DNA from: Endomychus coccineus
Taxonomy: Eukaryota > Arthropoda > Insecta > Coleoptera > Endomychidae
Reading direction: 5' to 3'
Length of the DNA stretch: 64,000 nt
Assembly (NCBI GenBank): GCA_958510875.1
Contig: OY294068.1
Location: 154,726,388 to 154,790,387, forward strand
This document shows positions 2,481 through 59,942 of this stretch, in pieces. Under the pieces are notes generated by a model. The model was not told the origin of the DNA. It saw nothing but the letters and a program-made list of their open reading frames with translations, and searched no databases. Within the stretch, counting starts at the first letter, position 1; every line of letters starts with the position of its first letter. The translations under genes and the position numbers were made by a program.

Positions 2481-3311
2481 TTAGAATGACTGAACCCTAT
2501 TGATTATTTTGGATCGAAAAAATGTGTACCTTTTGATTAAGGTATCATTTGGCCAGAAGGAGGGAACATACAATTTATCAGCTAGTTTGAGAACAGCACC
2601 AACCCTAAAAGCAGCATTTTCATCTTTAGTATCTAGCTTGGTCACTTCGAATATGTATCCCGGTGCACGTTGTTCCAGGTAGGATTGTACATCTTCTGAA
2701 GTCACCGTTGATCGACATCGTCCTACGTATATCCACAATCTACGTTCCGCAGCTGTAAATTCGGCATCTGCTTCCAGACTGTCTGTATTCTTCCCAATTA
2801 TTACTTTCACTTTTTCATTAGATTTTTTATTTGTTGGAAGATTATTTATCGATTGATTATTTACCGATTGATTATTTGCACATTGGTTCTTCATGTGTTT
2901 AGATTTCACCACTTCCTTTGTAGATTCTTTCTTTCTTGACCTTTTCTTTATTGGTATTTTATTATCCAGATTAATAACTGTATTATCTGAAGAGTCCGAT
3001 GGTAATGAATCATTTAAATTACATTTTACATCCACGTTATTATAACCGAGACTATAATTATTTTCATTTTCATTTTCAGAGCGTTCTAAATGCTGATTAC
3101 TATTTATTTTTGTAAGCAGATTAATCAAGTCAATATTACTTCTCTTTATATTAAGAATTTCTTGACGGAGTTTGACTATTTCGTTCATTAAAGGTGTTGT
3201 ATATTCTTCAATTACACTGTTTAGTAATATTTTCAAATCATCAGCTAACATACCTTGAGATCTAGGAACATCCTGATGTTCACTAGCTTCCCCTCGAGTT
3301 GTGTATACCAT
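2481..3311 (-). CDS. LINE-A ORF1 protein (276 aa, nucleic-acid-binding accessory protein)
   Basis: An intact 276-codon frame from an ATG at 3311-3309. Residues about 15-70 form a leucine/isoleucine-rich heptad stretch likely to be a coiled coil. The middle is Asn/Ser/Lys-rich and contains a short repeated QS(V/I)NN run. The C-terminal third (from about residue 185) is a folded-looking domain containing the phrase RRLWIYVGRCRS. That domain resembles the C-terminal domain of ORF1-like proteins found upstream of insect LINE ORF2s. I see no CCHC knuckles. It sits directly upstream of the EN domain on the same strand. The intact frame beside a broken ORF2 suggests a fairly young copy. Confidence 0.75.
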   Translation of the reverse strand: MVYTTRGEASEHQDVPRSQGMLADDLKILLNSVIEEYTTPLMNEIVKLRQEILNIKRSNIDLINLLTKINSNQHLERSENENENNYSLGYNNVDVKCNLNDSLPSDSSDNTVINLDNKIPIKKRSRKKESTKEVVKSKHMKNQCANNQSVNNQSINNLPTNKKSNEKVKVIIGKNTDSLEADAEFTAAERRLWIYVGRCRSTVTSEDVQSYLEQRAPGYIFEVTKLDTKDENAAFRVGAVLKLADKLYVPSFWPNDTLIKRYTFFRSKIINRVQSF

Positions 3312-7342: not shown

Positions 7343-8317
7343 ATGAGCAAATTTAAAAATTATATGTTTAAAAACGCAAATTCATCAACAATGCCAAAGG
7401 AGGTATCGAAACAAACTGAAAACATAGTTATATCTCGTATGGACAAATCTTTACCAGTGATAAGTCTGTTCAAGCAAATAGAACAAGAAGCATTACTAGG
7501 CACTACAGATACAAGCGAACAAAATTTCGAAGCTAATAGAGTTACTCTTCATGACGAAACCAAAACACAATACACTAAAAAATTTACGAATTCAGATGAA
7601 TTTGAACTTCGGGGACGGCGAACAAAACGTAACTTGAAAGACCCCTTAAAAGAGCCCAAAATATCACAAGTGGAAATAATAAAAAAGTTGAAGAAATACA
7701 TATATTCAACTGGAGAAGAATATGAAAGAAGGAAGTTCCGAACTCGGTTAAAAAAAGCTAGTCAAGGTTTACATTCCCATGGAGTTATCCTGGAACGTGC
7801 AGCTGACCACGTGAGACGACTTTTAATAAAACAGGAAATTATTTTGAACGATATGCAACAACTTTTCAAAATATACAATAGGAACAGGTTTTACGCAATA
7901 GGCAGCAAAGAATTTCATAAACTAATAGCACCAATCATGTTAATACACAAGTTCGATAAGAAAATGTGTGGTCATGATCATACTATTTCCCAATGTGGTA
8001 ATCTCGAATTCCTTCTTACTAGAGCTCTTAACGAATGCGAACGTAGAATAACGGATATTGGTGGTGCGTTAAATGATGTTAGTGAAGATTTATCTTTCGA
8101 AAGCATACCCACTCGCTCTGTTGAGGTTTTCTCATCGACAACATGCTTGCTGTCGAATAACGTTGATGCAATACCTAGCTCTGGAGATATGAAGAAATCT
8201 CTAGTTACCAAAGATTCAAACTTAGGATTGCAAGGTGATGGTATGCAAGCGAAACGCAATTATGGAAAATATTTTACAGGCAAGAGGAATTTGTGTACAG
8301 ATGTATCCAACACGCAA
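7343..8317 (+). CDS. Exon 1 of the inferred giant gene (uncharacterised basic protein, N-terminal part)
   Basis: A frame is open from an in-frame TAG at 7265 to a TGA at 8324. The first ATG is at 7343 (context ATAATAATGA). I propose the exon ends after codon CAA at 8317, because GTACGT follows directly as a donor in phase 0 and readthrough adds only two codons. The 325 residues are basic and helical-looking. An Arg-rich segment (GRRTKRNLK) is followed by a strongly helical block of about 120 residues with many charged heptads (VEIIKKLKKYIY, ERAADHVRRLLIKQE), then a Ser/Thr-rich tail. I recognise no family. The junction residues NTQ would join to TPDIDD at 16185. Confidence 0.7.
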
Positions 8318-8540
8318 GTACGTTGAGAATGAGCTTAGAGCTGTAAAAAAATTACGTAAAGGTTGTATAAATATACCAAATTTATGTTATTCCTTAAAGT
8401 TCTTACCTTCCGTCACATAGTGTGGGTAGACAGGGGAAATGATGGCCACGGAGGTAATGGCGGCCATCGATTTCTCTTATATAGGCATATACGTTGACTC
8501 AACAGATCTAGTGCGCCAACTCGTTCTAATATACTAAATA

Positions 8541-9587
8541 GTCCAGGCTATGAACCGGAAAATAAAAAAAAAGACGTGTAGGTTCGAATCAAAAATTTTT
8601 TTTTGCATTAGCTTCAGGAGGTTCTCACGATCATTCATACACCTTAAAACCTCTTGGGAACCCCAACCTCACCCATTGGGGGCGAAAATGGCCCGAAATC
8701 TCCAAGTCTTAAATTGTATTTTCTACAAAAAAGGTATTTTGGCATTTCGAGTGCACCTAGGAGGTTTTTTGGGTCGCTGAACACGAATCCGTAGCCAGAT
8801 TTACTTGCAAACCATCGTAGGGGTGGTAAAATCGACGAAATTGGCCAATTTTGCACCCCTATATGTTATTTTGCAATATACGTGTTTTAGGCATTTCGAA
8901 TGCACCAAGGAGGTTTTTTGGGTCGCTGAATACGATTCCGAAGCCAGATTTACTCCAATATCATCGTAGGGGTGAGAAATTTACAAAAATTGCTGATTTG
9001 ACACGCTTCTAAATTTTTATTAATTTTGCATTTTAAAATTACTTCGGAGTAAATCTGGCTTCGGAATCGTATTCAGCGACCCAAGAACCCCCTTGGTGCA
9101 TTCGAAATGCCAAAAACACGTTAATTGCAAAATAACATATAGGGGTGCAAAATTGGCCAATTTTGTCGATTTTACCACCCCTACGATGAATTGCAAGTAA
9201 ATGTGGCTACGTATTCGTGATCAGCGACCCAAAAAACCTCCTTGGTGCATTTAAAATGCCTAAAACACGTAAATTGCAGAATAACATATTAGGGGTGCGT
9301 AATTGGCCAATTTTGTCGATTTGATCACCACTACGATGGATTGCAAGTAAATCTGGCTACGGATTCGTGTTCAGCGACCCAAACAACCTCCTTGGTGTAC
9401 TTGAAATACCAAAATACCTTTTTTTATAGAAAATACAATTCAAGACTTGGAGTGGGGTTGGGGTTCCCAAGAGGTTTTAAGATGTATGAATGATCCTGAG
9501 AACCTCCTGAAGCTAATGCAAAAAAAATTTTTTGATTTGAATATGTTTTTTTTTATTATAGCTAAAATCCCGGTTCACAGCCTGAAC
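8541..9587. repeat. Foldback element FB-2 (GTCCAG family), 1.05 kb, TA target duplication
   Basis: GTCCAGGCTATGAACCGG at the left end faces CCGGTTCACAGCCTGAAC at the right end, flanked by TA (8539-8540 and 9588-9589). The arms are near-perfect reverse complements along most of their length and meet near 9045. Each arm contains copies of a roughly 150-bp unit with GGTCGCTGAA (8772, 8921) or TTCAGCGACC (9072, about 9220, 9370). It is inserted inside the pogo element. Open frames in it are repeat shadows, not genes. Confidence 0.88.
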
Positions 9588-9928
9588 TAAAAGCAATGCC
9601 GGTAAGGTTTGCAGCATATGTATGTGTATTTAGATTTTTATAGAGGAATGTTGATATATTAGTATATGCTTATAGTGAAAGTGTTTTTTTGAAAGGTATG
9701 TAAATCAAGTTTTATATTAAATAGAATATTTTCTCAGATGTTCATAGAATCACCGTTTCATGCACTTAAACATCAATATGAGTATTTTACATAACCTAAA
9801 TGTTTTTTTGCATTATAATAAAAAAAACGTATTGCATTTGGGGTAATAGCGGCCAAATAACTAGAGGTAATTGCGGCATGGCCGTTACCCCAACATAAAA
9901 AATCTTGATTCATAGTTTTGTTTTACAG

Positions 9929-11285
9929 ATGCCTCGGAAATATATTCGTAAATAAACCAAAGCCACATGGACTTCCGAAACTTTAAAAGCTGTCTTAAAT
10001 GCTATAGAAGGGGGCCGAACTATCAGAGAGGTCTCCTCAACATTTAGAATCCGTAGAAGCACTTTGCAAGATCGTCTTAGAAATGGCTCAACTTCTGGAC
10101 CATTATTGGGACGAAAGTCAGTTTTTACGCAAGCATAGGAAGAAGAACTTATTGTGCAAGTAGTCAAAAGTTCCATAATATTTTATGGCATAAAACCTAC
10201 AGAAATCAAACCGTGTGAATATACATATGCTAGAAAAAATAAGTTAGAAACTCCTTTTACGAAACAACTGCTACTGGAAGAGACCGGCTGGAGGGTTCCA
10301 TTAAAAGAAATCCTTTTATAAGATTGAGGAAACCAGAACCTACTATCGTTAATAGAATTAAAGCGTTCAAAAAAGAAGAGGTGTCTCTATTTACCTCAAA
10401 CTTAAGTAAGCTTGTGGATAAACATGAGTTCACACTGACGGGGATATTTAATGCCGATGAGAATAAAATCACAACTGTCCAACGTCTTGGGAAAGTTTAC
10501 GCACAGAGAGGCCAAAAGAGGAATGGGTTTGCGACAAGCGCAGAAAGGGACAAACAACAACGGTAATGTGTGCATTCAGTGGATCTGGAATTTACGTCCC
10601 TCCCATGTTCATCTTTAAAAGAAAAAGAATAGCTCTTCATTTAAAAAAAAAGGTTTCCGGGTTCCATCTACTTTTGTTCAGATAATGGATGGATCTACGA
10701 AAGTTTGTTTCTGGAGGGAGATATTAGTGTAATTCGCAGACAATCTCCCGAACTTATTCCAGTAAACTCCTGAATCTATCGATGAAATAACACCAGAAGC
10801 CAATAATAGAGTCTCATTTTCTGATATTATACCTATTCCTGGAAGTTCAACTACAATGAGATGTGATAACAGTAAAATACAACATTCCGAAATATTCACG
10901 TCTACCCCAATGAAGGTCATTTCAGAAGAGAAAGAAAAGAAAAAATAAATTAATAAAAATAAACTAGAAGACAAAGAAGATCGAAGAGCAGAAAACATAA
11001 AAAAAGTCAAAAGAAAAGTGTTAGTTGAAACGGATTGACAATAAAATACCGCTTGATAACAAAACAAAACTACCAAAACCACGGGAAAAATCTAAGAGGC
11101 AGAAGAATGATGTGAAATACAAGAAACGCATTCATCGAAAATTCCGATATAGAACCAGAAATTAATCAGGACATATGTGTAATATGTGGAGAATTCGGAA
11201 AAAACAATGAAGTGTGGCTCAGATGTGTGATCTGCGGCGGATGGCCCCCCAAAGCATCTAATGGCGAAAAAGATGACTTTGTGTG
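9929..11285 (+). pseudogene. pogo-family transposase remnant (CENP-B-type HTH, lost DDE, C-terminal Cys cluster)
   Basis: The ATG at 9929 opens MPRKYIRK, followed by an in-frame TAA. Beyond it the same frame gives LKAVLNAIEGG and STFRIRRSTLQDRL, the helix-turn-helix typical of pogo transposases. A later frame holds the nuclease-region phrase TGIFNADENKITTVQ (around 10435-10480, with the first acidic residue). More stops and frameshifts follow. At 11160-11285 the frame ICVICGEFGKNNEVWLRC, then VICGG, is the Cys-rich C-terminal finger. Two residues expected to be His/Cys read Pro and Ser there. The gene is clearly inactive. Confidence 0.8.
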
Positions 11286-11529
11286 ATTTTTGTTTGTAAT
11301 TTATTAGCCGCCATTACCGCCACGTGTGAGGGAAATACCGGCCTCGCAGTGTGTCTCCATTTTATTTCTTTAATATTTATTTTTGTTTTCAACTGTGTAA
11401 CACAATTATGTTTGTTTAAAGTATATATTGACCTTTATTTTTAGATAATTACCACTTTAAACATGCTTTTAGTTTTATGACAATTTAAGATTTCCCTTAG
11501 AGGGCCGCCATTCCCCCAGTCTACCCTAC

Positions 11530-12150
11530 GTCGGTCTTTCTTATGCTAACCCCAATTTTTCTAGAACAATAAAATTCTAGATAACATTTTCTATTTCCAA
11601 TGGAGCACTTAATTTACACTCACAGACAATTTTTTGTCTCTCCTAGATAGTCAATATTATGGTGATAGTATGTTGTATAATATTATTGGTGGATGTACCA
11701 GATTAGACGGCACAAGATTTTAATTGATAATTCAGTTATTCGTGATAATGTTTTGAATCGTTCATGTTTGTTCATCTATAGGTACATACGTTACCATATT
11801 CAAATTTTGTGTATCAGCTATAACATAAGGTTTATCGAGAATTAAAATTAAATTAATTGGGGAAAACGAAGAAACTGGGAACATTTTTTTATTTTCCGAA
11901 ATAATATCGTAAACGTATTTTCTGACAAGTATGGCTCTTAGACTTTTTCGAACAAGAGTTTGTACTATTAACTTAGATACTGCTAAAGTTTAGGCAAAAT
12001 CAGTTTCATCTAAATTATCATGTTGCGGTTATTTTAAGAACTTCTAAATAAAACTTAATTGAAAATGTATGGTGTCGATTTATAGATCACTAAAATGAAT
12101 GTTTATCTTAGCTTGGTTATGGAATCATACCGTCAATAACAACTCTAAAA
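11530..12150. other. Intronic sequence without recognisable features
   Basis: AT-rich; no coding or repeat structure that I can support. Confidence 0.35.
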
Positions 12151-12265
12151 TGTCTAGATACGTACATCTCTCTAATCCCAATCTTTGCTAAAATCTTCGA
12201 AACTATTATAAAAAATTGCTTCTTTATGGGGTTTTCGATACTGAACCCTAACATTCCAATGAATT
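12150..12265 (+). pseudogene. Tiny LINE reverse transcriptase scrap
   Basis: The plus strand reads SLIPIFAKIFETIIKNCF, which matches the RPISIIPVxAKIFE finger motif of jockey/CR1-type RTs (compare LINE-A near 900-960). Only about 35 codons are recognisable before the frame is lost. Confidence 0.55.
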
Positions 12266-12541
12266 GTTTTTCAGTTAATAGATTTTTATGAGATTTGGTG
12301 TATGGGTTGCTGAAGTGTCCAGGATAGTAGGTGTTGCAAATCAGAACACCCTACTCAAAATAATGCAACTTTTCATCCTTTTTTTTCGGAAAAATGTACC
12401 TCTTCCGAGTTATAGCCCTTATAGTATAGGAATCTTCCATCCCTATACGAGATTACCTAAAATCCCTCAATTACAGAATACAACCTTATTTCTATTATTA
12501 AATGTATTTAATTCATATGTTTATAATTCATAGGCGATACA

Positions 12542-12585
12542 TAAACAATATGTTTAGTGTTACGATAATATAAACATATTGTTTA
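12542..12585. repeat. Perfect 15-bp inverted repeat
   Basis: TAAACAATATGTTTA (12542-12556) and its exact reverse complement TAAACATATTGTTTA (12571-12585) flank a 14-base spacer. It may mark a small hairpin or the edge of an inserted repeat. Confidence 0.75.
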
Positions 12586-12599
12586 GTATAAGCTACCTT

Positions 12600-13249
12600 A
12601 ACATGGACACCGTGGGAACCTCGAACCCAAGGTAGTTATTGATAGACCGACATATATATTGTTATGATTTCATTTCCTAAACAACAAAAATGATAAAATT
12701 AGAACTTACCGAACATTGAAAATCAGAAAAGATTAATAAAAAGATATTATATGGAATTAAAATACAATGTTAAAAGTTAAATAATAGTTAGTATAATATA
12801 ATGAACAATGTAAAACATGATAAACAACAATGTAATTAGAATAAAAGTGTAAAACAAGAACTTCAGTGAAAGTGAATAAACGTACAGTGTTACGAAGGCA
12901 GAAATCATAATTAAAATGATTACAAAAACTATCATGAGATAGCACAAACTATTGAAAAATGTTGTAGATATAAGTTAGGATTAGTAAATTTGAATTATAT
13001 AATGTTAAAGAAATGTTATTGATATGTTATATTATGTATTAGTTTTTAATAATGACAATTGTCAGATTTATAATAATTATAGGAATAATCATATTAATAA
13101 TAACCTAATCATAGGTTATCTTATACCAAAGTGTGTGGAAAAATGTAGGCAATATGAATTTTATAGACGTCAGATTAGTAACAATGTAATAGTTCTGTCA
13201 GTTTTTAACAATCAACAAAGCATTCTTGATAGGTAAACTAAGCACCTCA
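12600..13249. other. AT-rich intronic stretch, possible U3 region of the following LTR
   Basis: No coding frame with recognisable content. It directly precedes an LTR-type promoter at 13291, so part of it may be the LTR's upstream region. The LTR start could not be fixed. Confidence 0.3.
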
Positions 13250-14291
13250 TTGGTTAATTTTGAAAATACTTGCCGTCCTTTTTGAAGGCCTATAAAAGGC
13301 ATCTGAAGACAAGCCAAATCAGTTAGCCATCAACATCTGAAGAGTCAAGATACTCAAGCTACTCAAAAGATTTCCATAATCTTAGATTATTGGATAAACA
13401 TCGGTGAACCCAAGTGTTCCAGTAGCTTCGTAAGGTTGAAAGTAACCCAAGCAAATAAGTAATTTATACAAGTCAAGTAGCGTTCCCAGTCTTCGAACAA
13501 AGTTTTTAAAAGTTATTATAACCATAATTCACAAGTAGCATCGTATAATAGTTAGTTTTCGACAACGTTCCAATACATCATTTAAGGTTTTATATCTTTT
13601 GAAAAAGAATAAGACAAGTTAACAATTATCAACAGTTCCTGATTTCTAAAGAAGTAACCACATTGTTTACCTGTGATTTGTTTATAGCAGAGAAATTGTG
13701 TACCTACGGGTAAAGTGAATTATCAAATTAATAAGAAAATCAAGCCAAGTGAACATTGCCTACATTTTAAACATATTCTTGGATATAAACTAAACGTAAG
13801 TTTATTTATTATTTCTCCATTGTATTATTATCTGTCTGTAAATCTGAAAGAAAGATTGTAGATTATAACTTTGTAAACAAAGATAAATCGAAATAATCAT
13901 TTTGAGGTTAGATCATAGATCTATTTCAACACAACATTGTAGAAGTTAATACCCGAGATAAATTAGAGTCATAGAAATTTAAATATTAAAAGTTAGCATT
14001 CAATGAACCTTGCGTTTAATTCCATAGATATAAAATAAAAAGGTAAAAGTTCATTATTCAAATCATTAGATTATTCAAATGAAAACAAACATAAGATTTA
14101 AAATACAAATAAAAGCTAGCCGGTAGATTTCAAAACATTGAAATATTCAAATTAATTCAAATAATAATTAAAGAATAAAAACTCTATAAAGAGTTTTTAT
14201 TCAAATCAATATTCAAATTAATTTAAATCTAATTAAAGAATAAAAATCAGTAAAGAGTTTATAATATAACAATTGGCGCCCAACGTGGGGC
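13250..14291 (+). mobile_element. LTR retrotransposon remnant: LTR promoter plus tRNA primer-binding site
   Basis: A TATA box (TATAAAAGG at 13291) lies 30 bases upstream of an arthropod initiator-like TCAGTT (A at 13321), a strong LTR-type core promoter. About 950 bases downstream, ACAATTGGCGCCCAACGTGG (from about 14269) matches the TGGCGCCC-type, tRNA-Lys-like primer-binding site of gypsy-class LTR elements, with the LTR ending around AATT. No gag or pol frame follows. This is therefore an LTR with a short leader. The LTR's 5' boundary is unknown. Confidence 0.55.
13291..13324 (+). promoter_or_regulatory. TATA box and initiator of the LTR remnant
   Basis: TATAAAAGG at 13291-13299 and TCAGTT at 13319-13324 are at the canonical 30-base spacing for a pol II start. 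It is sense-oriented with the giant gene and lies in its intron, so it could produce a chimeric transcript if still active. Confidence 0.55.
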
Positions 14292-15049
14292 AATATAAAC
14301 CAAAAGACCTTTTTTTATATCAATATATAGTATACTAAGATTAGATTAACTAGAGCACATTGATATATTCAGACATTCATATATTCGGATATCATTCAGA
14401 TATTCATGATTCATGAATCATTATTGACGGTATTACTATTGATTTGTATATGTACCATTGTTATTATGTAGAGCGAGACATTTAGTCATAATGACGTCAA
14501 GCTCTACGTCCAGTAGTGTAACCCTTTTATAAGTGAGTGTTTCAATTCCTATGCCCCTACAAGGACCACTGATGATCAGCTTAGGGCAAACCGTCCCCAG
14601 ACATTTAAGAGCTGATCCCCACACCCTTTTAGAGCGAAAAGAGTGATGGGTCAAAAAACCAAATAAAAAGGCAAATATGCAAAAATCATATTTAAAAATT
14701 ATCAGAAGTCATTTGTTGTTGAAAAATACATAATTTTGATGCTATAACTTTTGTAACTTTTCTCTAAAAATAAATATATTTCGACTTATCCTCAAAAATC
14801 CTATCAAGTTATGTTTGAGAGGGAATGAAAGGAAGAATGAATTCTGTACCTTTGAAAATGCCTGAATACTAGCTTAATTTCAAATAAACATGTTTCGTTA
14901 GAAAATTTTAAAAACGCATATTGCTGGATTATTGAGACTTGTCTGCTGCCTGTAGTATGGTAAATCGGGATGATCAACACATAGAATTTCTTTGCATGTT
15001 AATAGGTAAAACCTTACTTCTATAACGTTTTGAAATCAAAAGCTTCCTT
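14292..15049. other. Intronic sequence after the LTR leader
   Basis: Includes a less AT-rich patch (about 14440-14660) of unknown origin. No motif that I can assign. Confidence 0.3.
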
Positions 15050-15990
15050 ATGGTATCGGGGGAGGCACAAACAGGCTCAATACTATCAAGTACTGGTACT
15101 ATATGTGCAAATCTACATCGTGTGATCCAGCGGTGGAATGTTGGTAGAGGAGATAATCATTCGAATTTTTCTTGAATATAGATATAGGGACAAACGTCAC
15201 TAGGGATAGTTCCACCACTTTGCCGTTCAATAGAAAAATTAAGTCTGGTAGGAAGTAGTTCGGCAGGTCTCGAGCTTAACAATGAAGGAGTCACTTGCTT
15301 GAGCTTGACAATGAAGGGGTGACTAGCTTGTTCTCATCGGGTCCGCCTATCCTGAATCTCTCGAGGTGGAACAACAGACGAAATTACTGATGAATACCGA
15401 CTATGGAAATAGCTATAGAAAAGGGAGAGATCGCCCACCTTTCTACAATGTTCTAGAGAGGACAATGAATTCATAAGTGTGACTTCATCAATCAAACGAA
15501 CAGCTTTCTTTTGAACATAATCTAAGACCTTCAGCGTACGTTTGGGAGCCGAACTCCAAACATGTGAACACTACTCCAGGATAGGTCGAATCTGTGCTTT
15601 GTAGATTATAAGGAGCTGCTGGGATGTAAAGTAGCTCTTGGCACGGAATAGAAAACCAAGTTTTCATGAAGCGGTTTTCCCAATGGACATCACATGATCC
15701 CCCCATGAGAGCATGATCATCCCATGAGGGTGATCATCTTAATAGGGATTGTGGGATCCGTCTTCCTGGATAAGATGCAAGGGTTAGTTTTGGTTGCATT
15801 AATCTCTACTAGATTATCAGATCCCCATTTCAAAATCATTGCCAGATCTCCATTAATTGCGTCAACCTGTCTCTGTCTCGCTCCTCTGGCTTCATTGGAT
15901 GATGTATGTACCATCATCTGCAAGGCTGAAGACAAGACAGGTGGTCACTTCCAACAGATCATCGATGATTGTAAACATGTAATTATTTAT
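15050..15990 (-). mobile_element. LINE-C copy 1 (CR1/Daphne-like RT), antisense in the intron
   Basis: The minus strand encodes SLADDGT (an xADD catalytic motif, near 15930), then EARGARQRQVDAINGDLA and LKWGSDNLVEINATK, with thumb and 3' sequence to about 15085. The same protein phrases occur at 36220-36340 on the plus strand (copy 2), so these are two copies of one family. Several frameshifts and stops make it inactive. It is 5'-truncated just upstream of the xADD box. Confidence 0.75.
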
Positions 15991-16184
15991 CTTGTATTAT
16001 GCGTAATTTACAGTACAGTAAACCCCAGATAACTAGATTTAAACACAATTTAAGTAAAATTACAAAAATCTGTTCGCCTACAAAGTTTACTTTACGTAAA
16101 CCGTAACCCCCACCAACCCCCGCCCCTCGGCCATTTTCTGGATCTGCCTTAGCCATGTTCTAATTTTAAATTTTATTATTCTAG

Positions 16185-19100
16185 ACTCCAGACATTGACG
16201 ACAATCACGAACAAAAAGCGAAGGAACCATCTCCCCAGCTGAACCATAATTTCAATATGTCCAGAAGGAATAGTAGTCCAGCTATATTATGTGTTGCCGA
16301 TTATATATCGAATGATGGTTCATGCAATTCAAATTCCAGAGTCATCATAATGAGCGATGATCACTTCAAGAGATTCGAAAAGTCTCTGGCACGTTTCGCC
16401 GCTAGAAAACAAATTGGCGTACTGAAAAAAATGTACGAACAGGAAATTGATCACTTAGAAAACAAGAAATGCTACAACGAATTTGAAAAGGCCTTCATGA
16501 ACAGGGTTCTAAATAAAGATGAGAGTGATAAGAAAAGGAATATTATCATAATCAATTTCAAAATATTCGAAAACTTGGACAAGAAAGTGCAAAAGCAATT
16601 TAATGACTTTTCATCTAGTGAAAGAAATGATCAGCAGGATATTAATTTCTTATATCTCTATGAACAAAATGAGCAATGTTCATCGAGTATCTTCAAGAAG
16701 TACTATGATTATTTGAAAATGAAAGTATTGAATGATAAGGCTAAGCAAAATGAACTGAAGAAAACTGGTCACTTGATTATCGTCAATGAACATATTTTCA
16801 GAAGACCCAGTCAGGACAATGACACGAAGGAACCCCTCGAAGAAGATTGCATCTTGTTCTTGAATAATGAAATTTATAAATGTCTCGCAAAAGAACGCAT
16901 CCATGAACTATTGAGTCTAGAGCCAAAAACGTATCCAGTTCCTAAAGCAGCTTATTCAAATTTATCGATGGAAAATTTAATACTTACCGTTACAAAACGT
17001 GATACAAAAGAACGCGAAAAGATACTTAAGGTGAACGAAAAAGCCTTCGAAGATTTTGAAAAAACCTTGAAGATTCCCAGTATATTATATTCTAACAACA
17101 TGTCCCGCATCAGTGATGTAGACATCACCAAAGAGACAACGTTAAGAAAGCCTGACATGAAATCTGGGAAGATTCGCCAGGTCAAAATTTCCAAAATAAA
17201 CGAACAAATAGAGCGATGCCAACAATGCCTAATACAGAACGGAGCGAAAGAGAAATTCACATCTTCCAAACAATCCAAAACGAAACCCGAAAAGAATAAC
17301 AATAATGCAAAACTAGCCACTGGACTTATCGGGAATATTATAGTGAATTTAGCTAAAGATAATGGTGATATAAAACAATATTGCAACTCACATGTGGCAG
17401 GTTCATCAAATATTGTGGAAACGAATGAGGAAGAATTATTACTACATAACGTCACTGACAAAACTATATTAGAGCCTTGTGTACAAAAATATCACAAAAA
17501 TAATGTAGTCACCGTAGAAGAAAGAGAAAATCCGAAAGATGAATCATCTGTCTCTTCAAATTCTAAGAAATTGGACAAAATTTTCTTAATACCTGAAGAC
17601 GACAGTATACATGGAGGTCCAATCGATGAAGAAAAATTGAGTCTTGGTCATATTGACTTACAAGAGCCCGAAAGTAATTCTCCTAAAATAACAAAAATCC
17701 CAGGCGGGGATGAAGAGACCCTAAAAATTGTGGATAATTCGTCAAATACGGAAAATAGTTCCATAAAAAAGGAAAAATTCCTTGGTGATAACTCTAAATC
17801 GATACAATACAATCTGAAATCCTACATTGATAAATCTCCGAAAATCACAAACAAGGAGGTATCAGCTGTGGCTAATTTACATTCGGTGGATACGAGTGAA
17901 AAAAACGATTCTATTTATGAAACAATAACACTGAATAGCGACGATGTTGACATTATAAAACCCGCGATAAGATTGTCAAATGAATCTGTATGTAGCAAAC
18001 CAGGCATTACAGACAGCTTTCTGAAACAGATACGGAATAAATTATTGCGAGATATAAGGAAAAATTCAGCAAAACCTTCTTTAATACCAAAGAAGGTGAA
18101 TAGAAAATCTAAGGCTGGCATCGTGGTGAAGAAATATAAAGATGCGGCTGGGTTGATCTTAAAGTCCGACAATTTGAAAAAAACTGTGATGGAAGATGGA
18201 CCACCTACTATGAAAAAGCTGTGTAACATAATCGAAAGAACATCAGATCAAGAGCGGTTAGCAAGAAATGTGACTGAGAATGCAGATATTGCTACCAGAC
18301 ATATGTATGTAGAAAATTATACGAATACATGTATTTCTATCAAAGGTGAAACTTCATACTCGTTACGTAAATCAACAACGACAACTTTAATAAGCAAGAA
18401 CATACAGCACGAACAGATAAATATATCTAGCGGAGAGCAAAGACTACCAATTCCATTTGAAATAGATCTTCAAATGACCCAAAATGGGGAAAAACTTTGT
18501 ACAGTCTCTGCACCCGCGGCAGGTCAAGAAACATTGTCAAAAGATCAAGGGCATAGAACTGACAATATGAGTCGGAAGATGTATGAAGAAAACAAATCAA
18601 GTTCATGTACTTTCATAAAAAATGAAAGCCCATGCTCATCACACCATACGACTAAGATAACTGCCTTGAATTCTATAAGTAATAATGAGAATCCTGGACC
18701 GAAAACTGAATCTAACAGAGACGAACCAAGCTCGATTTCCCCGTTAAAAGGTCCTGTTAAGAAGGATGAACTGTCGAATGTACCCACCACGGACCAGAAG
18801 AGATCAATAACACCGGTGGAGAAGTCAGTTATGGATATTGAAGACGTTTTTAGAGGAAATTGTGAAAGTTCTTGTAATTCTACTAGAGATCTGAGTTCGT
18901 GCTCCTTTTCCGAAACACCAACTACAAATAATTTGAATTCTACGACTGGGAGCCAGCAATTAAAACAAAATAGCAAACTTAATAGAGACCGGATAATTCC
19001 GATTCCCTTAAGGAAGAAATATTTAGAGAGACAACAACTTAATTATAACAAACATGAAAAGAAACAAATTGACACAAATGACTCGAAATTTAATGGCCAA

Positions 19101-22100
19101 GTAGTTGGCGTTGCAGTAACCTTATGTCCAAGGACTCAATCAGCTAAATCGAACAATCCTAACAATCATTTCAAACAATTGCTGAAAAGTGAAATAGCTG
19201 GACAGGTTTCTAAATTGGAAGCGTCTAAAGTAAAAATTGAAAGAGAAATTTATAGAGAAAACATAAACACGTCACATGCAGGGCTAAATGAGAACGATAC
19301 GTCCAAACAAGTGTATGTAGCAATGAAAAAGAATAATATTGAAGAACGTTCGCAGGATCCGGAGAATGAATCGGATGTTCACGGAAGGAGTGGCAAGGCT
19401 AAACAATTACAGTTAAAAGCAAAAGAAGTGAAACGAAACAATCAAAAGAAACACAATGGTAAAGTACAAAAAAAAAGTGACTATCCATCCAAATTAGGGA
19501 TCCAGGAAGTGGAGATTCACAAGGAGGAGACACTTGTGAAATCATTGAACGTATCAAATCAAAAAGTGGGTAAAGATCCATCACCAGACGTTAAAGCTAA
19601 GCAAACAATTGACAAAGTCGAGAGTTATGTTCAATCGGAAAATACCAGATCCAATGCAAAAACATTGATTAAGCAGTCACCGAATGCCCAACAAACTGAT
19701 AAGGTATTTTTGGAGGAGGTTTGTAAACCCACGGCAGATTCTGGAATATTGAAATATCACGATAAGCTCCCGAAATTGAGAGACAAATTACATGTGATTG
19801 AAGACTCAACAGAACCCGCAAAACCCACTACGGTTGTTTCAAAAAATTGTAAAATCCAAGAGAAAGTTGATACTTCAGCATGCAGAGCAGGTTATCAAAA
19901 TATTCTGAAAATTTCTGACTCACCAAATGATTTGCTAGGTAATGTAGCTGATAACTCAAATATTGGAATCATAAACGTGAATTTACCAGAGGATTCTGAT
20001 CACACTTTTGTTTGTAATGAGAAAGTCGAGTTAGTACGGAGTCTTGAGGAAGCTATAGGTCCACCAAATTCAAATGGGAAGATCATTTCATATGATAATG
20101 TACCGCAAGAAGAAATCACAACTGCTAACGAGAATCCAAAATGTACCATATCGCCAGAAGAAATGGAAAAAACCTTAAAAACCATTATTTACAGTCCCGT
20201 TGTTGATTACAAACCAGTAGAAAAATTGGTCTGTAAATTAGACGATGCTGAAGGAATGGAATTCAAGGAAGGTGCCAACAACGACGTAACATCTCTTCAG
20301 AAACCTGTACGCTCATCGAAAGAATATTTGTCTGAAGTCAATCAAATTAAATTGCTCGAAGAAGAAATAACCCTCAAAGCTGCAGAAAATGCGCCACTTT
20401 CTAACTCCAAGAAGAAAATGTTGGAAGGACTCAATAAAAACGTTGACAATATAACTACTCCTGAGACGGTTGTAGAAAATTTCGGAATATTCCTTCCGTC
20501 TTCCTGTGATGTTATATCTGACAAAATCTCGATGACTAAACGAGCTGATAATAGGATTCACATGAAAAGTTATGGAGCTATGAATGAAACTTTATTTGAT
20601 TTGAACAATAAACTCGCGAAGTTGAAATTTTGTGTTTGTGAAGCGTCTAACTTGAAATTAAACTCATCCAGAAAGTTGGAGTTGGCTATGCTCGATTTGG
20701 AGAATTTGAAAAGATCTGCTGGTAATACAGAACAATATGTTGGATTGAAAACTTTGAAAGAGGTCGTGTCCGGTGATATTACCGCTATGACGGATAATCT
20801 AACCGAAAATATTGGGAATTTGGAAAATGGCTCGTCAATCTTGAGTAATAATGAAGTGAAACACACTCCGAAAATGATTATTGCTCAGAAATTCCCCGGC
20901 AAAACAAACGAATCGATCAAACAAGACACATTGGCTTCCAGCGAAGCAGCATCAATTCTAACTTCTCCCCAAGAAGAAACCGTTAGAATAACTAATGAAA
21001 ATATCGTGGACCAGCAATTTGGCGGAATGAGTAAACTGAAATTCGAGACTGAAGATGAAGCATCTAAAGCTGTTGACTCTATCAAAGAAAGTAGAAAATT
21101 GATCAGAAAAGCTAATGAAATAATAAATTCTCTCAAACATAATGTTCAAGGCTTCAAACAAGGTTTTGCCAAACTGAGAAAAATCAATGAATATACTAAA
21201 CCGACTAAGATACCTACCTCGTACCTAAGAAAGAAATCTGATAATGAACAAATTGATGGACATGTTATTGCAAACTGTTGTCGGAAAGAGACAAAATGTA
21301 AGCAACGACAAATAAAAGTCGATCGTGAGATCAAACATTCCCACCCAGCAAAATGTGCTATTCAAGAATTGAATGTGAAAGAAAAGAAATTTCCACCCAA
21401 AATATGTTCAGCTGACTCTTCTAAATCGTCATCCGCGAAAAATAAATGTAGAAAATCAATTTTCACAACCTTGGTAGCTAACAAGAAAACAGAATATAAA
21501 AAATTGAAATTGCCACCGTTCCCGCCTGAAAAATCACAAACTAAAACAGCAATTTGTAAGTTAGATGCGGAGAATCATTCCAAAAATGCAACGTTCGTGA
21601 ATATCTGCAATTTGCCTACAAATTCTGATTTCCGTGAACCAATACTTCAGTTTAGAACTAAAGAAAACGGCCAAACAAGAGAAAAAATTAATGCTTTCAC
21701 ATTACCAGGAAAATTTTGCCAGAGACTTATCGAAACACAAATGGAAAATGATTCCCAACAACTAGCGCCAGTTGTGAAAAGAACAGCATATAAGAGAAAG
21801 CCGCCGGCTTCTAAGAAAATCAGTTTTAAGTTATACACTCATAAAATTCTACGACAATTCGATATTATCAACAATCAAACCCATCCTTCAGAAGTGAACA
21901 CTCGGAAAGTCTTAATGTTCCGTGACTCGAACAAAAATACGTGTCAAGAAGATTCTGAGTATACAGATATTGATTCCGCAAAAAGTAACGCAACAATTTC
22001 TAAGATTTCCATGAGCGATAACCTAGGTAAATGTAGAGAATTTTTTGTAGCAACAGACAATTCTTTGCAACAATGTACCAAGAGATCGATTGCCAAGCAG

Positions 22101-25100
22101 TTGCATAGATTGAAAGAGTTTGGAAAGGAACTGAAAAATAGTGTAATTAGCCAATCAGCGTCGCCAATTCCGAACCAAATGATGGTGGACTATACTAAAG
22201 AAAAAGAACAGACCTGCAACTCTCCCCTGAAGAAAACAACATCTCCGAAGTATCGTTCTAGAACACCTCATACTGTACCTAAATCAAACTCTCGTAGTGG
22301 AAATAAAAACAGCGATTTCTTAAATAACAAACAGTCGAATAACAACGAGTTCAAAAGACCTCTATGTTCAACTCCAATTGGTACTAGTCAGGACTTGAAC
22401 AACTACGGAGTACTTCACAGAAACCTGCGAAATAAAAAGTTAATTGGAAATACAGCACCTTGCGTAACACCCAAAAGCCCAAATGTTCCTGAGAAGATTA
22501 AGAACATGCTGAAAGTTAGGCACAATAATAGTTCTATCTGTATGACTAATATAGATATGGAAGACCTTAATTGTAGGAAGTTGGAAAATCCTGAAAATGT
22601 TATTCCGCGATGTGTAATTGACCAAAATTTTCGAGAAAATACTGGACTCGGCCAAGATCGCAGCTTATCTTCTGGTGTATCTGATAAGAGAGAGAATAAA
22701 AAACTTACTATCAAGTTATGGAACGGTCTTATTCCAGAAATAGCAATTCCCTCCCCACGTTCTTCTAGGCTGAACTCTACAGTACTCCAAGAACCGAAAG
22801 AATTAAATAAATCAATAGACGTGAGGAGAAAACGAGGGCCAATAGTAATCAATGAGCCAATGGACAGTACGTTATCAAGTTGCCCCATAGTTATCAATAA
22901 ACCGCATTTTATAGACTCTTTCTCAAGCATATCCAACCAAGTGATGACGGATATAAGTAGTCCATATACAACAAGTAAATCTGACTGCAGAATAGCTTCT
23001 ACATTCAGTTGGATCGAAAATCCAATAATGAATAATAATAAATCATCGATGACAATTAAGAAGGCTAACTGGAATAGTCGTAACAGATTTAACAAATCTC
23101 AATCGGAAGAAAAAATAAAGAAGAATATAATGAAAACACATACCTTCCAAACAAAAAAAATCATCGGCAATGAAAATTCTTTTGTAAAACAGGTAAGAAC
23201 CAATCTCAAAAGACGATTGAATTATAAACCCAACATACCAATATCAAAGATGAGGAACAAAATGCGTTCACGAAATGTGAAACTTGTCCCATGGAATTAT
23301 GCTCCATCTACTCTGAATCATACACAAACTGTCATTCCTGACATAATCTCGAAATCATATAAACTCAGCTCGTCAATTAATTTGGATAATTTTACTACGA
23401 AAAATCGCGGGCACAAAGGAAAAAGAGATACGCATCAAGCGAATATCACACCAAAACCGAATTCTCAGATTAAATCTACTTCTGAACTACTGAGAGAAAA
23501 GTTGAAGTTCATTTCAGAACTAGGTAAAATAAAAAGTGCTACCAAAATTGAAATATCCTCAAACAAAAATTCGAAAACGAATACTATTATGATGAAACAA
23601 AACATCATAAAATATCCTAATGTTACCAGTAATACCAGTCAAAAAATAATTGATTCTACCCTTCCAACAGCCAACATGAATATGCGTCGACCAGTATCGG
23701 TCCCCCCTCCAATACGAACTAAAATCGCTTCGCCAAATATCTCTAGGTCAATTTCAGGCACTAATCTACTACAACCAATATTTAAATCAAATCAAAACTC
23801 AAATATTACAATAGTGAGAAGATCGAACGTGACGAATTCCATCGATAACAGAACTAAATGTCCAATAACTGAAGCCGATAAGAGTTGTTTCAAAGATTCC
23901 TTGGAAAAAAATAAGAAGAAACAAAAATCGGTCGTCAATAGAGACTTAATTTCGAAATCAGGTGAGCAAGTATCGAAACAGGGTGTGAAAACTGAAAAAA
24001 GTCAAAGCTTAGTTAGAAAAAAGTCAGACTTGCCTAAAGCACGAACCAAGGACACCAAGGCAAAAGTTTCCGGAAACAAGAGCTCAACTTCAAAATTGGC
24101 TCAACACGATTCAAAACTTAATTATGCAAATACCGTTGAAATCGTGAGAGTTTCAAGTGGATCAAGAGGAAAAGGATCCTGTCAACAATATCATACTCAC
24201 AAATTCAGTAAAGCCTTAGGAAAAACTGAGCTTAATCATTCAATGCCCAGTACGTCACCAAAAGCGCAAAACACACCACATAATAAACCTTTTTTGAAAC
24301 CATTAAATGAAGGAACAGGACTATATAATATTGTAGAAGAACCGGAAATTGGAAAATCAAAGGAAAAAATCGGAACAGAACAAGTATGCAGAAAGTTCAA
24401 CTATTCCACTCGTTCAAAAAGCGCTGAACCACAAACAAGACCATATACTCCATTTAAACATAACATTGGAACTATTGGTAAGCTTGTCAAAACAGAATTC
24501 CCTCTGACTTCTCAGAAGGTCATTGAGCCGCAAACATTTTCTTCCGATATCATAAAACAGAATATTGAAACGGCGTTCACCAGGGCTATTGAAAGAAACA
24601 TCAAAAAAGGCTCTGCGAGGAAAAGAAGTTCTTCCAAGTCGCCGGTTTATTCAAAAAACGACTCGATACCACCTTCGTTAGATAAAATCCAACAAAATAT
24701 CAAGAATGCTTATATGAAGGATATTGATACGTGGGTACCATGCGCACCCAGATCGGCTTTCCGTTCCAAAAGTGTTGAACCTCATATCAAATTAGTTTCT
24801 TCCAGCACAATTAAGCAAGATATAACAGATTTGGTCATGAAGGATATCGAAAGTAGGACCAAAAAAGAATATGCATCCCTTACCAAATCTGAAAACCGCA
24901 AGAGAAGCGTCGAACCGCGAACAAATTCACCTACCGTCAATGAACATATTGAAAGTCATATTACAACCTTGGATAGAAGTAGGAATCCGAAAAGACAACT
25001 TACGAACGGTCCTACCGGCGATATTAGAAGATCGAAATTTGAAGAACCAAAAGCAGTAAAAGAACAGTTAGGAAGGGATCAGAGGAAAATCCATCTAAAG

Positions 25101-25112
25101 GTATACAACTAG
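16185..25112 (+). CDS. Giant exon of an uncharacterised ~3,300-aa, largely disordered basic protein
   Basis: An uninterrupted frame of 2,975 codons runs from the inferred acceptor (TTCTAG|ACT at 16185) to TAG at 25110-25112. The first ATG is at 16257; numbering below starts there. I recognise no family. Residues 28-271 hold about six copies of a degenerate motif of four hydrophobic residues, two to five polar ones, then FxxF or similar (VIIMSDDHFKRFEKSL, NIIIINFKIFENL, GHLIIVNEHIFRR, CILFLNNEIYKCL, KILKVNEKAFEDFEK). The middle is Lys/Asn/Ser/Thr/Glu-rich and disordered-looking, with likely coiled coils near residues 1440-1530 and 1600-1650. The C-terminal 250 residues are a tandem repeat built of (K/R)SxEP and IxQNIxxAxxKDIE blocks. 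There is no signal peptide or membrane segment. A cytoskeletal, centrosomal or chromosomal scaffold would fit the composition, but that is inference. AAAG|GTATAC just before the stop could be a weak donor, so the C-terminus is uncertain. Confidence 0.85.
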   Translation, partial: TPDIDDNHEQKAKEPSPQLNHNFNMSRRNSSPAILCVADYISNDGSCNSNSRVIIMSDDHFKRFEKSLARFAARKQIGVLKKMYEQEIDHLENKKCYNEFEKAFMNRVLNKDESDKKRNIIIINFKIFENLDKKVQKQFNDFSSSERNDQQDINFLYLYEQNEQCSSSIFKKYYDYLKMKVLNDKAKQNELKKTGHLIIVNEHIFRRPSQDNDTKEPLEEDCILFLNNEIYKCLAKERIHELLSLEPKTYPVPKAAYSNLSMENLILTVTKRDTKEREKILKVNEKAFEDFEKTLKIPSILYSNNMSRISDVDITKETTLRKPDMKSGKIRQVKISKINEQIERCQQCLIQNGAKEKFTSSKQSKTKPEKNNNNAKLATGLIGNIIVNLAKDNGDIKQYCNSHVAGSSNIVETNEEELLLHNVTDKTILEPCVQKYHKNNVVTVEERENPKDESSVSSNSKKLDKIFLIPEDDSIHGGPIDEEKLSLGHIDLQEPESNSPKITKIPGGDEETLKIVDNSSNTENSSIKKEKFLGDNSKSIQYNLKSYIDKSPKITNKEVSAVANLHSVDTSEKNDSIYETITLNSDDVDIIKPAIRLSNESVCSKPGITDSFLKQIRNKLLRDIRKNSAKPSLIPKKVNRKSKAGIVVKKYKDAAGLILKSDNLKKTVMEDGPPTMKKLCNIIERTSDQERLARNVTENADIATRHMYVENYTNTCISIKGETSYSLRKSTTTTLISKNIQHEQINISSGEQRLPIPFEIDLQMTQNGEKLCTVSAPAAGQETLSKDQGHRTDNMSRKMYEENKSSSCTFIKNESPCSSHHTTKITALNSISNNENPGPKTESNRDEPSSISPLKGPVKKDELSNVPTTDQKRSITPVEKSVMDIEDVFRGNCESSCNSTRDLSSCSFSETPTTNNLNSTTGSQQLKQNSKLNRDRIIPIPLRKKYLERQQLNYNKHEKKQIDTNDSKFNGQVVGVAVTLCPRTQSAKSNNPNNHFKQLLKSEIAGQVSKLEASKVKIEREIYRENINTSHAGLNENDTSKQVYVAMKKNNIEERSQDPENESDVHGRSGKAKQLQLKAKEVKRNNQKKHNGKVQKKSDYPSKLGIQEVEIHKEETLVKSLNVSNQKVGKDPSPDVKAKQTIDKVESYVQSENTRSNAKTLIKQSPNAQQTDKVFLEEVCKPTADSGILKYHDKLPKLRDKLHVIEDSTEPAKPTTVVSKNCKIQEKVDTSACRAGYQNILKISDSPNDLLGNVADNSNIGIINVNLPEDSDHTFVCNEKVELVRSLEEAIGPPNSNGKIISYDNVPQEEITTANENPKCTISPEEMEKTLKTIIYSPVVDYKPVEKLVCKLDDAEGMEFKEGANNDVTSLQKPVRSSKEYLSEVNQIKLLEEEITLKAAENAPLSNSKKKMLEGLNKNVDNITTPETVVENFGIFLPSSCDVISDKISMTKRADNRIHMKSYGAMNETLFDLNNKLAKLKFCVCEASNLKLNSSRKLELAMLDLENLKRSAGNTEQYVGLKTLKEVVSGDITAMTDNLTENIGNLENGSSILSNNEVKHTPKMIIAQKFPGKTNESIKQDTLASSEAASILTSPQEETVRITNENIVDQQFGGMSKLKFETEDEASKAVDSIKESRKLIRKANEIINSLKHNVQGFKQGFAKLRKINEYTKPTKIPTSYLRKKSDNEQIDGHVIANCCRKETKCKQRQIKVDREIKHSHPAKCAIQELNVKEKKFPPKICSADSSKSSSAKNKCRKSIFTTLVANKKTEYKKLKLPPFPPEKSQTKTAICKLDAENHSKNATFVNICNLPTNSDFREPILQFRTKENGQTREKINAFTLPGKFCQRLIETQMENDSQQLAPVVKRTAYKRKPPASKKISFKLYTHKILRQFDIINNQTHPSEVNTRKVLMFRDSNKNTCQEDSEYTDIDSAKSNATISKISMSDNLGKCREFFVATDNSLQQCTKRSIAKQLHRLKEFGKELKNSVISQSASPIPNQMMVDYTKEKEQTCNSPLKKTTSPKYRSRTPHTVPKSNSRSGNKNSDFLNNKQSNNNEFKRPLCSTPIGTSQDLNNYGVLHRNLRNKKLIGNTAPCVTPKSPNVPEKIKNMLKVRHNNSSICMTNIDMEDLNCRKLENPENVIPRCVIDQNFRENTGLGQDRSLSSGVSDKRENKKLTIKLWNGLIPEIAIPSPRSSRLNSTVLQEPKELNKSIDVRRKRGPIVINEPMDSTLSSCPIVINKPHFIDSFSSISNQVMTDISSPYTTSKSDCRIASTFSWIENPIMNNNKSSMTIKKANWNSRNRFNKSQSEEKIKKNIMKTHTFQTKKIIGNENSFVKQVRTNLKRRLNYKPNIPISKMRNKMRSRNVKLVPWNYAPSTLNHTQTVIPDIISKSYKLSSSINLDNFTTKNRGHKGKRDTHQANITPKPNSQIKSTSELLREKLKFISELGKIKSATKIEISSNKNSKTNTIMMKQNIIKYPNVTSNTSQKIIDSTLPTANMNMRRPVSVPPPIRTKIASPNISRSISGTNLLQPIFKSNQNSNITIVRRSNVTNSIDNRTKCPITEADKSCFKDSLEKNKKKQKSVVNRDLISKSGEQVSKQGVKTEKSQSLVRKKSDLPKARTKDTKAKVSGNKSSTSKLAQHDSKLNYANTVEIVRVSSGSRGKGSCQQYHTHKFSKALGKTELNHSMPSTSPKAQNTPHNKPFLKPLNEGTGLYNIVEEPEIGKSKEKIGTEQVCRKFNYSTRSKSAEPQTRPYTPFKHNIGTIGKLVKTEFPLTSQKVIEPQTFSSDIIKQNIETAFTRAIERNIKKGSARKRSSSKSPVYSKNDSIPPSLDKIQQNIKNAYMKDIDTWVPCAPRSAFRSKSVEPHIKLVSSSTIKQDITDLVMKDIESRTKKEYASLTKSENRKRSVEPRTNSPTVNEHIESHITTLDRSRNPKRQLTNGPTGDIRRSKFEEPKAVKEQLGRDQRKIHLKVYN
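24400..25065 (+). repeat. C-terminal degenerate protein repeat inside the giant exon
   Basis: Blocks recur in order. KSAEPQTRP (about 24415), KVIEPQTFS (24520), KSVEPHIKL (24765), RSVEPRTNS (24905) and KFEEPKAV (25035) alternate with IKQNIETAFTRAIERN, IQQNIKNAYMKDIDTW, IKQDITDLVMKDIESR and VNEHIESHI. Spacing is roughly 45-85 residues. The conservation is at protein level, not DNA level, which suggests old duplication held by selection. Confidence 0.7.
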
Positions 25113-25470: not shown

Positions 25471-27313
25471 GAGGATGTTTAAAAAAAGTTACACGCCAAT
25501 GTTGTGAAAATTATAACAGATCACCTCTATATTATTCCATGTTTCGATAGCACGGAATAAATAACGGCAGATTAGTGTTAGTTACTTATCTATATTCAAC
25601 CAATTAAAGCGGGGGCGGACAAGTCCGAAGCACTTAGACCGCTTGATTGAGTCCTTTCTGCGCACGTTGATACAAGAATCAGTCCAGCAGGCCTAAGGCA
25701 GTGCCGAAGGCTGAAATTTTGCATGGACTGATATGTCTTATGGCTTCAAGCAGCATATGTTTGCTGCCGAGCAGCATATGTTTGTGAGCCTAAGAGAAGC
25801 CAAGGCTGGACATTCTGCTAAGATGTGAGAGGCAGTTCCATCCGCCTCTCCATATCTGCTACAAGCTGGGTCTTCAACAATGCTCATTGTGTGTAGATGT
25901 TTATTCAGATGACAATGTCCTGTGAGGAGTTCTGTCACCAGTTTTAGGCCTCTCCTGCTCATAGAGAGTAGAGTTTTAGAGAGTTTAGGCGAGAACTTCC
26001 TAATGTGGAGCTTCGCCTGCCTCATGTCGGGGCACTACGCCAGACCGAGAGCCACCAGTAGCTCCTTGAGGGCGTGGAGGTCGGAGACCGATGAAATTTC
26101 GATCGTTGAATCTGGGCTAGGGGCACTCAAGAAACCCCGTTTGGCCAGTTCATCGTCCACTTCGTTTCCGTTCACGCGATATTGGGCAATTACCCACACT
26201 AGCTGAAGTTTGTTCCTTCTGACTATTTCAGCCAGAGTTTCCCTGCACTCCAAGACAAGAAGTGCACCCAGGGCCTCTCGGCTGTCAGTGGAGATGTAGA
26301 TCCGCCTATTTTGGAGTTTAATGTCAGGTTCACCAGGGCACAGGTCCGTATTGGACTGACTTCTATCTAGAAAATGGTTGCGTGGGCACCAAGGGGAACT
26401 GAAATCTCCCTTCTGGGTGCACCCGAGTAGATTCCGGCTCCGCTAGGCTTGCCAATCGTAGTCTTTGTTCTCCCAGTCCATCCTCTGTGTAACGGCTGGC
26501 GTTTGAAACCTGATAGCAGGCGCTATCGCTTCCTGCGTCAGTCGGAGAATCGGGCAGTTCTCAACTGCCCAATCCCAGATTTTGCAATGACACAGACGCA
26601 CCGAACCACTGGCCCGGACAAGCCAGTCGATACGCAGTACCCGCGGCCACTATTTTGATATGGAGCTGTAGAGGGACCATCTCCACCAGAACCTCCAAAG
26701 TCCTGCCGGGGGGCGGTTCTCATAGCCCCGGTTATCACCACGCACGCAAGTCGTTGAACCTTGTCCAGAGCCAGACGAGACAGAACCGTTTTCGTTGCGG
26801 GCCACCACACGACGGCTGCGTAGATTATGATTGGGCAGATCATAGCCGTGTAGATCCAGTTCAGAACCCGAAGCCGTAGATCCTATCTGTTAGTGAAGGC
26901 TCTCCTGCATGCCCACTTATCTATATTAGATTTATTTCCAATATGTTTTCTGAAAAGTATTTAATGCCAAAAAACATTATTATCCTAAATGGAACACCCT
27001 GTTTGCATATTATTCAGAGGTAGGTACATCTTCCAGAAGTAAAACTAAAAGTTTGCTCTACCTTCTTGGTATCAACAGTTCGCTCTACCTTCTGGGTATC
27101 AGACAAAACATTTGTAGTTTTAGTGAAGTTTATTTAGTAAGGATATTTGTAAAAACTGTTAGGTGAATGAAACTACAATATACAGTCCACAAAGAAATTT
27201 CCCTTTAATGTAGTTTTCCTTCACCGCTCTATCGAAATATGAAATAATATTCCATTAAACCATTACAATTTCCACAACTTTGATGTGTAACTTTTTCTTG
27301 ATGAAACATCCTG
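25471..27313. repeat. Foldback/MITE (CAGGATGTT family) interrupted by a LINE
   Basis: The left arm starting GAGGATGTTTAAAAAAAGTT (25471) is the reverse complement of the right arm ending GATGAAACATCCTG (27313). Both continue through a GTTACAC block to a TTTCGATAG block, giving roughly 90-bp arms. A TA precedes the left end. Removing the LINE and one target copy leaves about 0.5 kb. Ends resemble those of the elements at 39472 and 52576. Confidence 0.75.
25597..26914 (-). mobile_element. 5'-truncated R1/I-like LINE with 13-bp target-site duplication
   Basis: The direct repeat ACTTATCTATATT flanks it exactly (25584-25596 and 26915-26927). On the minus strand, sequence from 26914 encodes the RT C-terminal phrases PIIIYAAVVWWPA and LDKVQRLACVVITGAMRTAP. 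An RNase H-like domain follows (IYISTDSREALGAL and LQLVWVIAQYRVNGNEVDDELA). The last block is a Cys-His motif (CSRYGEADGTASHILAEC) near 25850. Several frame breaks are present. It is markedly more GC-rich than its surroundings, as expected of a recent insertion. Confidence 0.9.
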
Positions 27314-37686: not shown

Positions 37687-59617
<21,931 letters not shown>

Positions 59618-59942
59618 CGTAGCTCTGATCTGGTCACTGCGATATGTAAGTGTATCTCTAATCTGTGTTTTCATATATATATATATGAGTATTACCGCGA
59701 CTACACACAGGTATGCGAAGTGTTTTGATTGTATTAGCGCTATGACCTTGGACCATCATGGCATGCATTATTCACAACTTTATCTAAAAGCTGATAATAA
59801 TATAATTTCGATCGTTATTGGATTTACTGAACACCCTAGAATAATTATTGAGGAAATCCAACATAAAGGATTATTTACTCCAATTTTCTTTCTCTACCCA
59901 GTATGAGTGACGTGTGGGTAGGTATATGATATGATGTATGTA

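Follow-up and report, generated by a model that had tools for sequence, protein, structure and literature searches.

What kind of gene is built around an intact 8.9-kb reading frame, and does its coding region begin within that frame or in an exon farther upstream? In the window, the whole stretch of 64,000 nucleotides that was analysed, one frame on the + strand (16185..25112, hereafter exon 2) runs through 2,975 codons to its stop. The positional base composition of 16185-25112 predicts about 143 stops, and none interrupts the 2,975 codons; 30 simulated windows (first-order Markov, same dinucleotide make-up) contained no open run beyond 191 codons. These figures rule out a chance open reading frame. 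The other five frames across the same stretch contain 215, 314, 151, 79 and 206 stops. Since about 5% of the possible point changes in the frame would create a stop, the intact 8.9 kb suggests that the reading frame has been maintained.

Codon use was examined with a model trained on exon 2 itself, under which all ten tenths of the exon scored between 0.035 and 0.199 bits/codon, compared to a mean of -0.185 (SD 0.065, 95% point -0.078, 99.9% point 0.048) in a noncoding reference of 3,000 overlapping samples. Three-base periodicity was raised in most of its 600-base blocks. The first ATG of the frame lies at 16257, 24 codons in, and the codons preceding it scored 0.372; among 4,696 overlapping noncoding stretches of 24 codons that lack a stop, 0.13% score as high. 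Both the open frame and its codon use support 16185-25112 as a real gene. A sequence-only reading of this DNA had reported an uninterrupted 2,975-codon frame amid broken ones, with coding-like codons ahead of its first ATG; its coordinates and counts were right, each of the other five frames carries 79-314 stops, and the score of the 24 codons bears out the last point. Two open frames antisense to exon 2 on the - strand (22415-23095, 226 codons; 16952-17461, 169 codons) are taken as by-products of its codon composition.

The exon 2 product has a calculated mass of 336 kDa and a pI of 9.5, and is rich in Lys (12%), Ser (10.5%) and Asn (9%). Joined to an upstream exon in the two-exon model set out below, it gives a protein of about 3,300 residues, in which 74% of FoldIndex windows fall below zero and are classed as unfolded (44% in exon 1, 76.5% in exon 2). 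The protein is thus mostly disorder-leaning, in agreement with the earlier description of a large, disordered and basic product. Net charge, summed over 200-residue blocks, amounts to about +31 over joined residues 1-2000 and about +127 over residues 2001-3300. The highest 19-residue hydropathy is 0.95, and therefore neither a transmembrane segment nor a signal peptide is suggested; patterns resembling a bipartite nuclear localization signal were not enriched (5 seen, 2.0 expected, shuffle maximum 9). Single-sequence AlphaFold predicted exon 1 residues 82-257 to be mostly helical, with low confidence (mean pLDDT 51), and the start of exon 2 to adopt a strand-helix pattern (mean pLDDT 36). Neither model is strong enough to assign a fold, and the exon 1 model, when used for fold searches, retrieved generic long-helix proteins. 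Exon 1 and exon 2 each matched only themselves in the 906-Mb host genome (seven candidates scored each). The reading that we prefer, with a probability of roughly 0.45, is an arthropod gene present in one copy, whose two coding exons flank an intron that mobile elements have lengthened and whose intracellular product of about 3,300 residues may serve as a scaffold.

Searches for relatives bear on whether this gene has already been described elsewhere. No Pfam family was matched at the curated cut-off by the whole protein, by ten pieces of at most 300 residues or by exon 1; matches below threshold to UPF0147, DUF6277, ZU5 and Tcp11 (E 0.035-0.16) were dismissed as noise. NCBIfam yielded no match, and PDB sequences gave nothing for exon 2 up to E 1; the five PDB matches of exon 1 (a short-chain dehydrogenase, sorting nexin-25 twice, RbfA and mitochondrial RbfA; E 0.38-0.94) were likewise regarded as noise. 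The single PHROGs match, to exon 1, was below threshold (E 0.076). Among 5.8 billion predicted proteins no relative was found for exon 2 at E<=0.001 (3,921 candidates), nor at E<=1 for exon 1 (820 candidates) or for the region across the joined start, residues 86-640 (5,301 candidates). Scans of contigs with six exact eight-residue patterns, which are sensitive to close relatives only, gave no confirmed relative in viral contigs (4 + 21 pattern matches); bacterial and archaeal contigs, scanned with exon 1, likewise gave none among 118 pattern matches. No paper on this gene was found by title and the start of the abstract.

Thus, the earlier failure to recognise a named family holds for Pfam, NCBIfam and the PDB sequences. 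The collections searched were prokaryotic, viral or metagenomic, together with the PDB and profile libraries, and are not expected to hold arthropod genes; since they include no arthropod proteomes, the null result is uninformative on insect relatives. Finding no family is not the same as finding a new one, and the earlier proposal of this gene as a candidate undescribed one is not established by these searches; the results would equally suit a known scaffold whose orthologue has evolved fast here. The corresponding explanation, that a giant or disordered insect protein already described has here a fast-evolving orthologue, whose similarity lies below detection or whose relatives are absent from the databases, is compatible with a two-exon gene, and we consider it close to an even chance. 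Apart from the missing arthropod proteome, it is favoured by the disordered, biased composition of the protein, the type on which similarity searches tend to fail. One published study tests whether lineage-specific genes arise from failure of homology detection and, by its title, many of them, though not all, can be accounted for in this way (PMC7660931). Against a diverged orthologue, Pfam profiles matched neither the whole protein nor any of the ten pieces at the curated cut-off, and neither MELT nor BRC motifs were present.

The structure of the 5' part of the gene bears on the second alternative, which separates the locus into two independent neighbours, a gene of 327 residues (7343-8326) and one of 2,951 residues starting from ATG 16257. 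The 325-codon upstream exon put forward by the sequence-only reading is present on the + strand at 7343..8317, counted from its first ATG to the proposed donor, and its phase is compatible with that of exon 2. Its codon score of 0.034 bits/codon is above the noncoding mean of -0.185 and the 95% point of -0.078 and counts as coding, although it is under the 99.9% point of 0.048 and lower than those of all ten tenths of exon 2, and three-base periodicity is not raised (1.5 in both 600-base blocks). The putative intron (8318..16184, + strand, 7.9 kb) would begin with GTACGT and end with ATTCTAG, but its exact ends are not unique. With a splice-site matrix, donor 8318 (CAA|GTACGT) scores 2.8 and acceptor 16185 scores 1.1; 2.4% of all GT dinucleotides in the window do as well as this donor, and 10% of all AG do as well as this acceptor. 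By the same matrix neither this pairing nor the alternative in-frame pairing of donor 8064, 8235 or 8241 with acceptor 16192 (score of this acceptor 3.3) is clearly better. Of the phase-0 junction proposed earlier between 8317 and 16185, the preservation of the frame stands, while its uniqueness does not, acceptor 16192 being equally in frame.

Two separate genes would be in keeping with the natural closure of the exon 1 frame at 8326, two codons and a stop beyond the proposed donor, with the favourable A at position -3 of ATG 16257, with the 8 kb in between and its mobile elements, and with the mediocre splice-site scores and the lack in exon 1 of the periodicity of exon 2. However, the 24 codons 5' of ATG 16257 score as coding, and an AG that resembles an acceptor and follows a T-rich run lies precisely where the exon 2 frame opens. 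We therefore consider two neighbouring genes unlikely, while splicing of exons 1 and 2 to each other is likely, at a junction whose exact position is not unique. At the 3' side, a candidate polyadenylation signal AATAAA (25556..25561, + strand) follows 444 bases past the stop, and no convincing downstream coding exon of at least 20 codons was found on the + strand from the stop to 37.7 kb.

Internal repeats were found in several parts of the protein. The clearest pair is located in the middle (18216..18356 and 18492..18632, both on the + strand; joined residues 1003-1049 and 1095-1141), with 16/47 identical residues, a z of 14.7 and a possible weak third copy. In an unbiased scan of 5,565 window pairs this repeat scored 80, 60, 54 and 50, where none of 4,000 shuffled pairs exceeded 48, and three other pairs reached 49-51; BLASTP of the joined protein against itself gave no off-diagonal match despite the clear middle pair. 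The two copies are identical at 27/47, 28/47 and 21/47 of codon positions 1, 2 and 3, respectively, a difference between positions 1/2 and 3 that is not significant (Fisher p 0.15), and their synonymous distance is not estimable.

Near the start of exon 2 (16341..17048, + strand; joined 378-613) a nine-residue motif occurs in five copies, VIIMSDDHF, IIIINFKIF, LIIVNEHIF, ILFLNNEIY and ILKVNEKAF, where 0.126 would be expected and at most 2 were seen in 500 shuffles, by a pattern defined post hoc from copies already seen. Longer N-terminal units of 66-83 residues were not above shuffles in 5/6 pairs (z -0.6 to 1.9), one pair reaching z 3.0. Binding of SUMO chains through a tandem array of SUMO-interaction motifs (SIMs) was considered and not adopted: of the five hydrophobic cores only VIIMSDD fits the acidic-flank pattern, and of the generic SIM patterns, counted over the whole protein, two occurred less often than expected (4 vs 5.1; 2 vs 4.7) and one more often (2 vs 0.45, with up to 4 in shuffles). 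Toward the carboxy terminus (24537..25058, + strand; joined 3110-3283), repeats of about 45 residues consist of a short amphipathic stretch, IKQNI..A...IE, followed by a basic SKSxEP-like motif. Three of the four copies are alike above shuffles (z 3.6-6.6 for 3/6 pairs) and three SKSxEP-like motifs were seen against 0.2 expected, a significance that rests on boundaries and patterns picked by eye and post hoc; in the unbiased scan no carboxy-terminal pair rose above 45, short of the shuffle maximum of 48.

This internal organization also bears on a third explanation, a lineage-specific (orphan) gene with counterparts confined to a narrow arthropod group. Disordered composition is common in orphan genes, and both this feature of the protein and the lack of a match in the collections searched would fit such an origin. 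Nevertheless, 3,300 residues with internal repeats seem more elaborate than would be expected of a gene newly arisen from noncoding DNA, and the absence of relatives rests on collections not expected to contain arthropod genes, so that we regard an orphan gene as rather improbable.

The putative intron carries a fold-back (inverted-repeat) element at 8583..9541, with no strand assigned, whose outer arms of 90 nt are 94% complementary, and by eye also a degenerate pogo-like transposon and a partial long terminal repeat with a primer-binding-like site; the pogo-like piece (10243-10563) matched no Pfam family. Elsewhere in the window, the remains of a non-LTR retrotransposon (420-2250, - strand) include a reverse transcriptase (PF00078) and a weak, sub-cut-off endonuclease match. 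A fragment at 48419-48730 (- strand), assigned by eye to the Mariner/Tc1-like transposases, gave helix-turn-helix matches, with HTH_23 above the cut-off, and pieces resembling it by eye were seen in flanks L002, L005 and L011. Two arrays of tandem repeats of about 144 bp (51090-51389 and 51559-52224) appear by eye to lie in opposite orientation, and a phrase of these repeats, TTCAGCGACC, is by eye shared with the fold-back element of the intron. Domestication of a virus or transposon gene, to which the many mobile elements in the intron and (by eye) in the flanks and the nearly intron-free coding part might point, is very improbable in view of the single copy, the putative intron, the lack of any Pfam transposon or virus domain, the lack of a relative in viral contigs, where close relatives only were detectable, and the E of 0.076 of the sole PHROG match.

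Downstream of the gene, exons of one or more carboxylesterase genes were observed on the - strand at 37687-38073, 43318-43722 and 59429-59755; they correspond to C-terminal, middle and N-terminal parts of Pfam COesterase, the middle piece being under the curated cut-off. In flank L011 (positions 601-1593) a 331-codon open frame, which matched no Pfam family, shows by eye one apparent transmembrane stretch and a long polar tail; located about 40 kb past the downstream end of the window, it may be an exon of a host membrane protein. Among 25 of the 129 contigs of the host assembly, five exceed 30 Mb (306, 203, 183, 144 and 38 Mb), and (TTAGG)n arrays were seen in 4/16 contig-end stretches. Judged by eye, contig C129 (16,047 bp) is a mitochondrial genome, on which ND2, COX1, COX2, ATP6, COX3 and ND3 follow each other in what we take to be the usual insect mitochondrial order. 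The host genome is that of an arthropod and, with high probability, of an insect.

Returning to the two-exon gene, a scaffold function is suggested by the anatomy of the protein, and nothing specific ties it to microtubules or chromatin. The helical region of exon 1 might mediate self-association or docking of a partner, the long near-neutral middle could act as a flexible linker in which short motifs bind partners, and the strongly basic last third, where the amphipathic/SKSxEP repeats lie, may anchor the protein on a negatively charged polymer such as microtubules or chromatin. An undescribed arthropod scaffold family characterized by a helical hairpin in exon 1, a strand-helix region with the nine-residue motif and a polymer-gripping carboxy-terminal amphipathic/SKSxEP array appears doubtful. 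Should orthologues exist across insects, the gene would encode a large protein that is conserved yet not covered by present domain libraries, and a candidate component of the cytoskeleton or of chromatin; should it be merely a diverged copy of a known scaffold, its description would be routine annotation.

Several known giant-exon proteins come closest to this one. The kinetochore scaffold KNL1/Spc105R has a giant exon, is disordered and evolves fast, and the protein described here resembles it in giant exon and disorder; the MELT repeats of KNL1, sought here as M[DE][LIVMF][ST], gave 0 matches where shuffling predicts 0.27, by a pattern that degenerate insect versions would escape, and its C-terminal RWD domain was not matched by Pfam in the whole protein or in pieces, a search that a diverged domain could escape. 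Ki-67, BRCA2 and ALMS1/CEP295 are large disordered proteins encoded to a great extent in one exon, and are similar to our protein in this respect, but differ in that no Pfam domain was matched here: the FHA domain and repeats of Ki-67 gave no Pfam match, which a diverged domain could escape, and the BRC repeats of BRCA2 (FxTASG) gave 0 matches and no Pfam match. MAP1 and its Drosophila counterpart Futsch are very large, disordered microtubule-associated scaffolds with a giant exon. Compared by Pfam profiles, the protein described here gave no match, including to the conserved N- and C-terminal MAP1 regions; it has in common with Futsch a giant exon and a very large disordered product.
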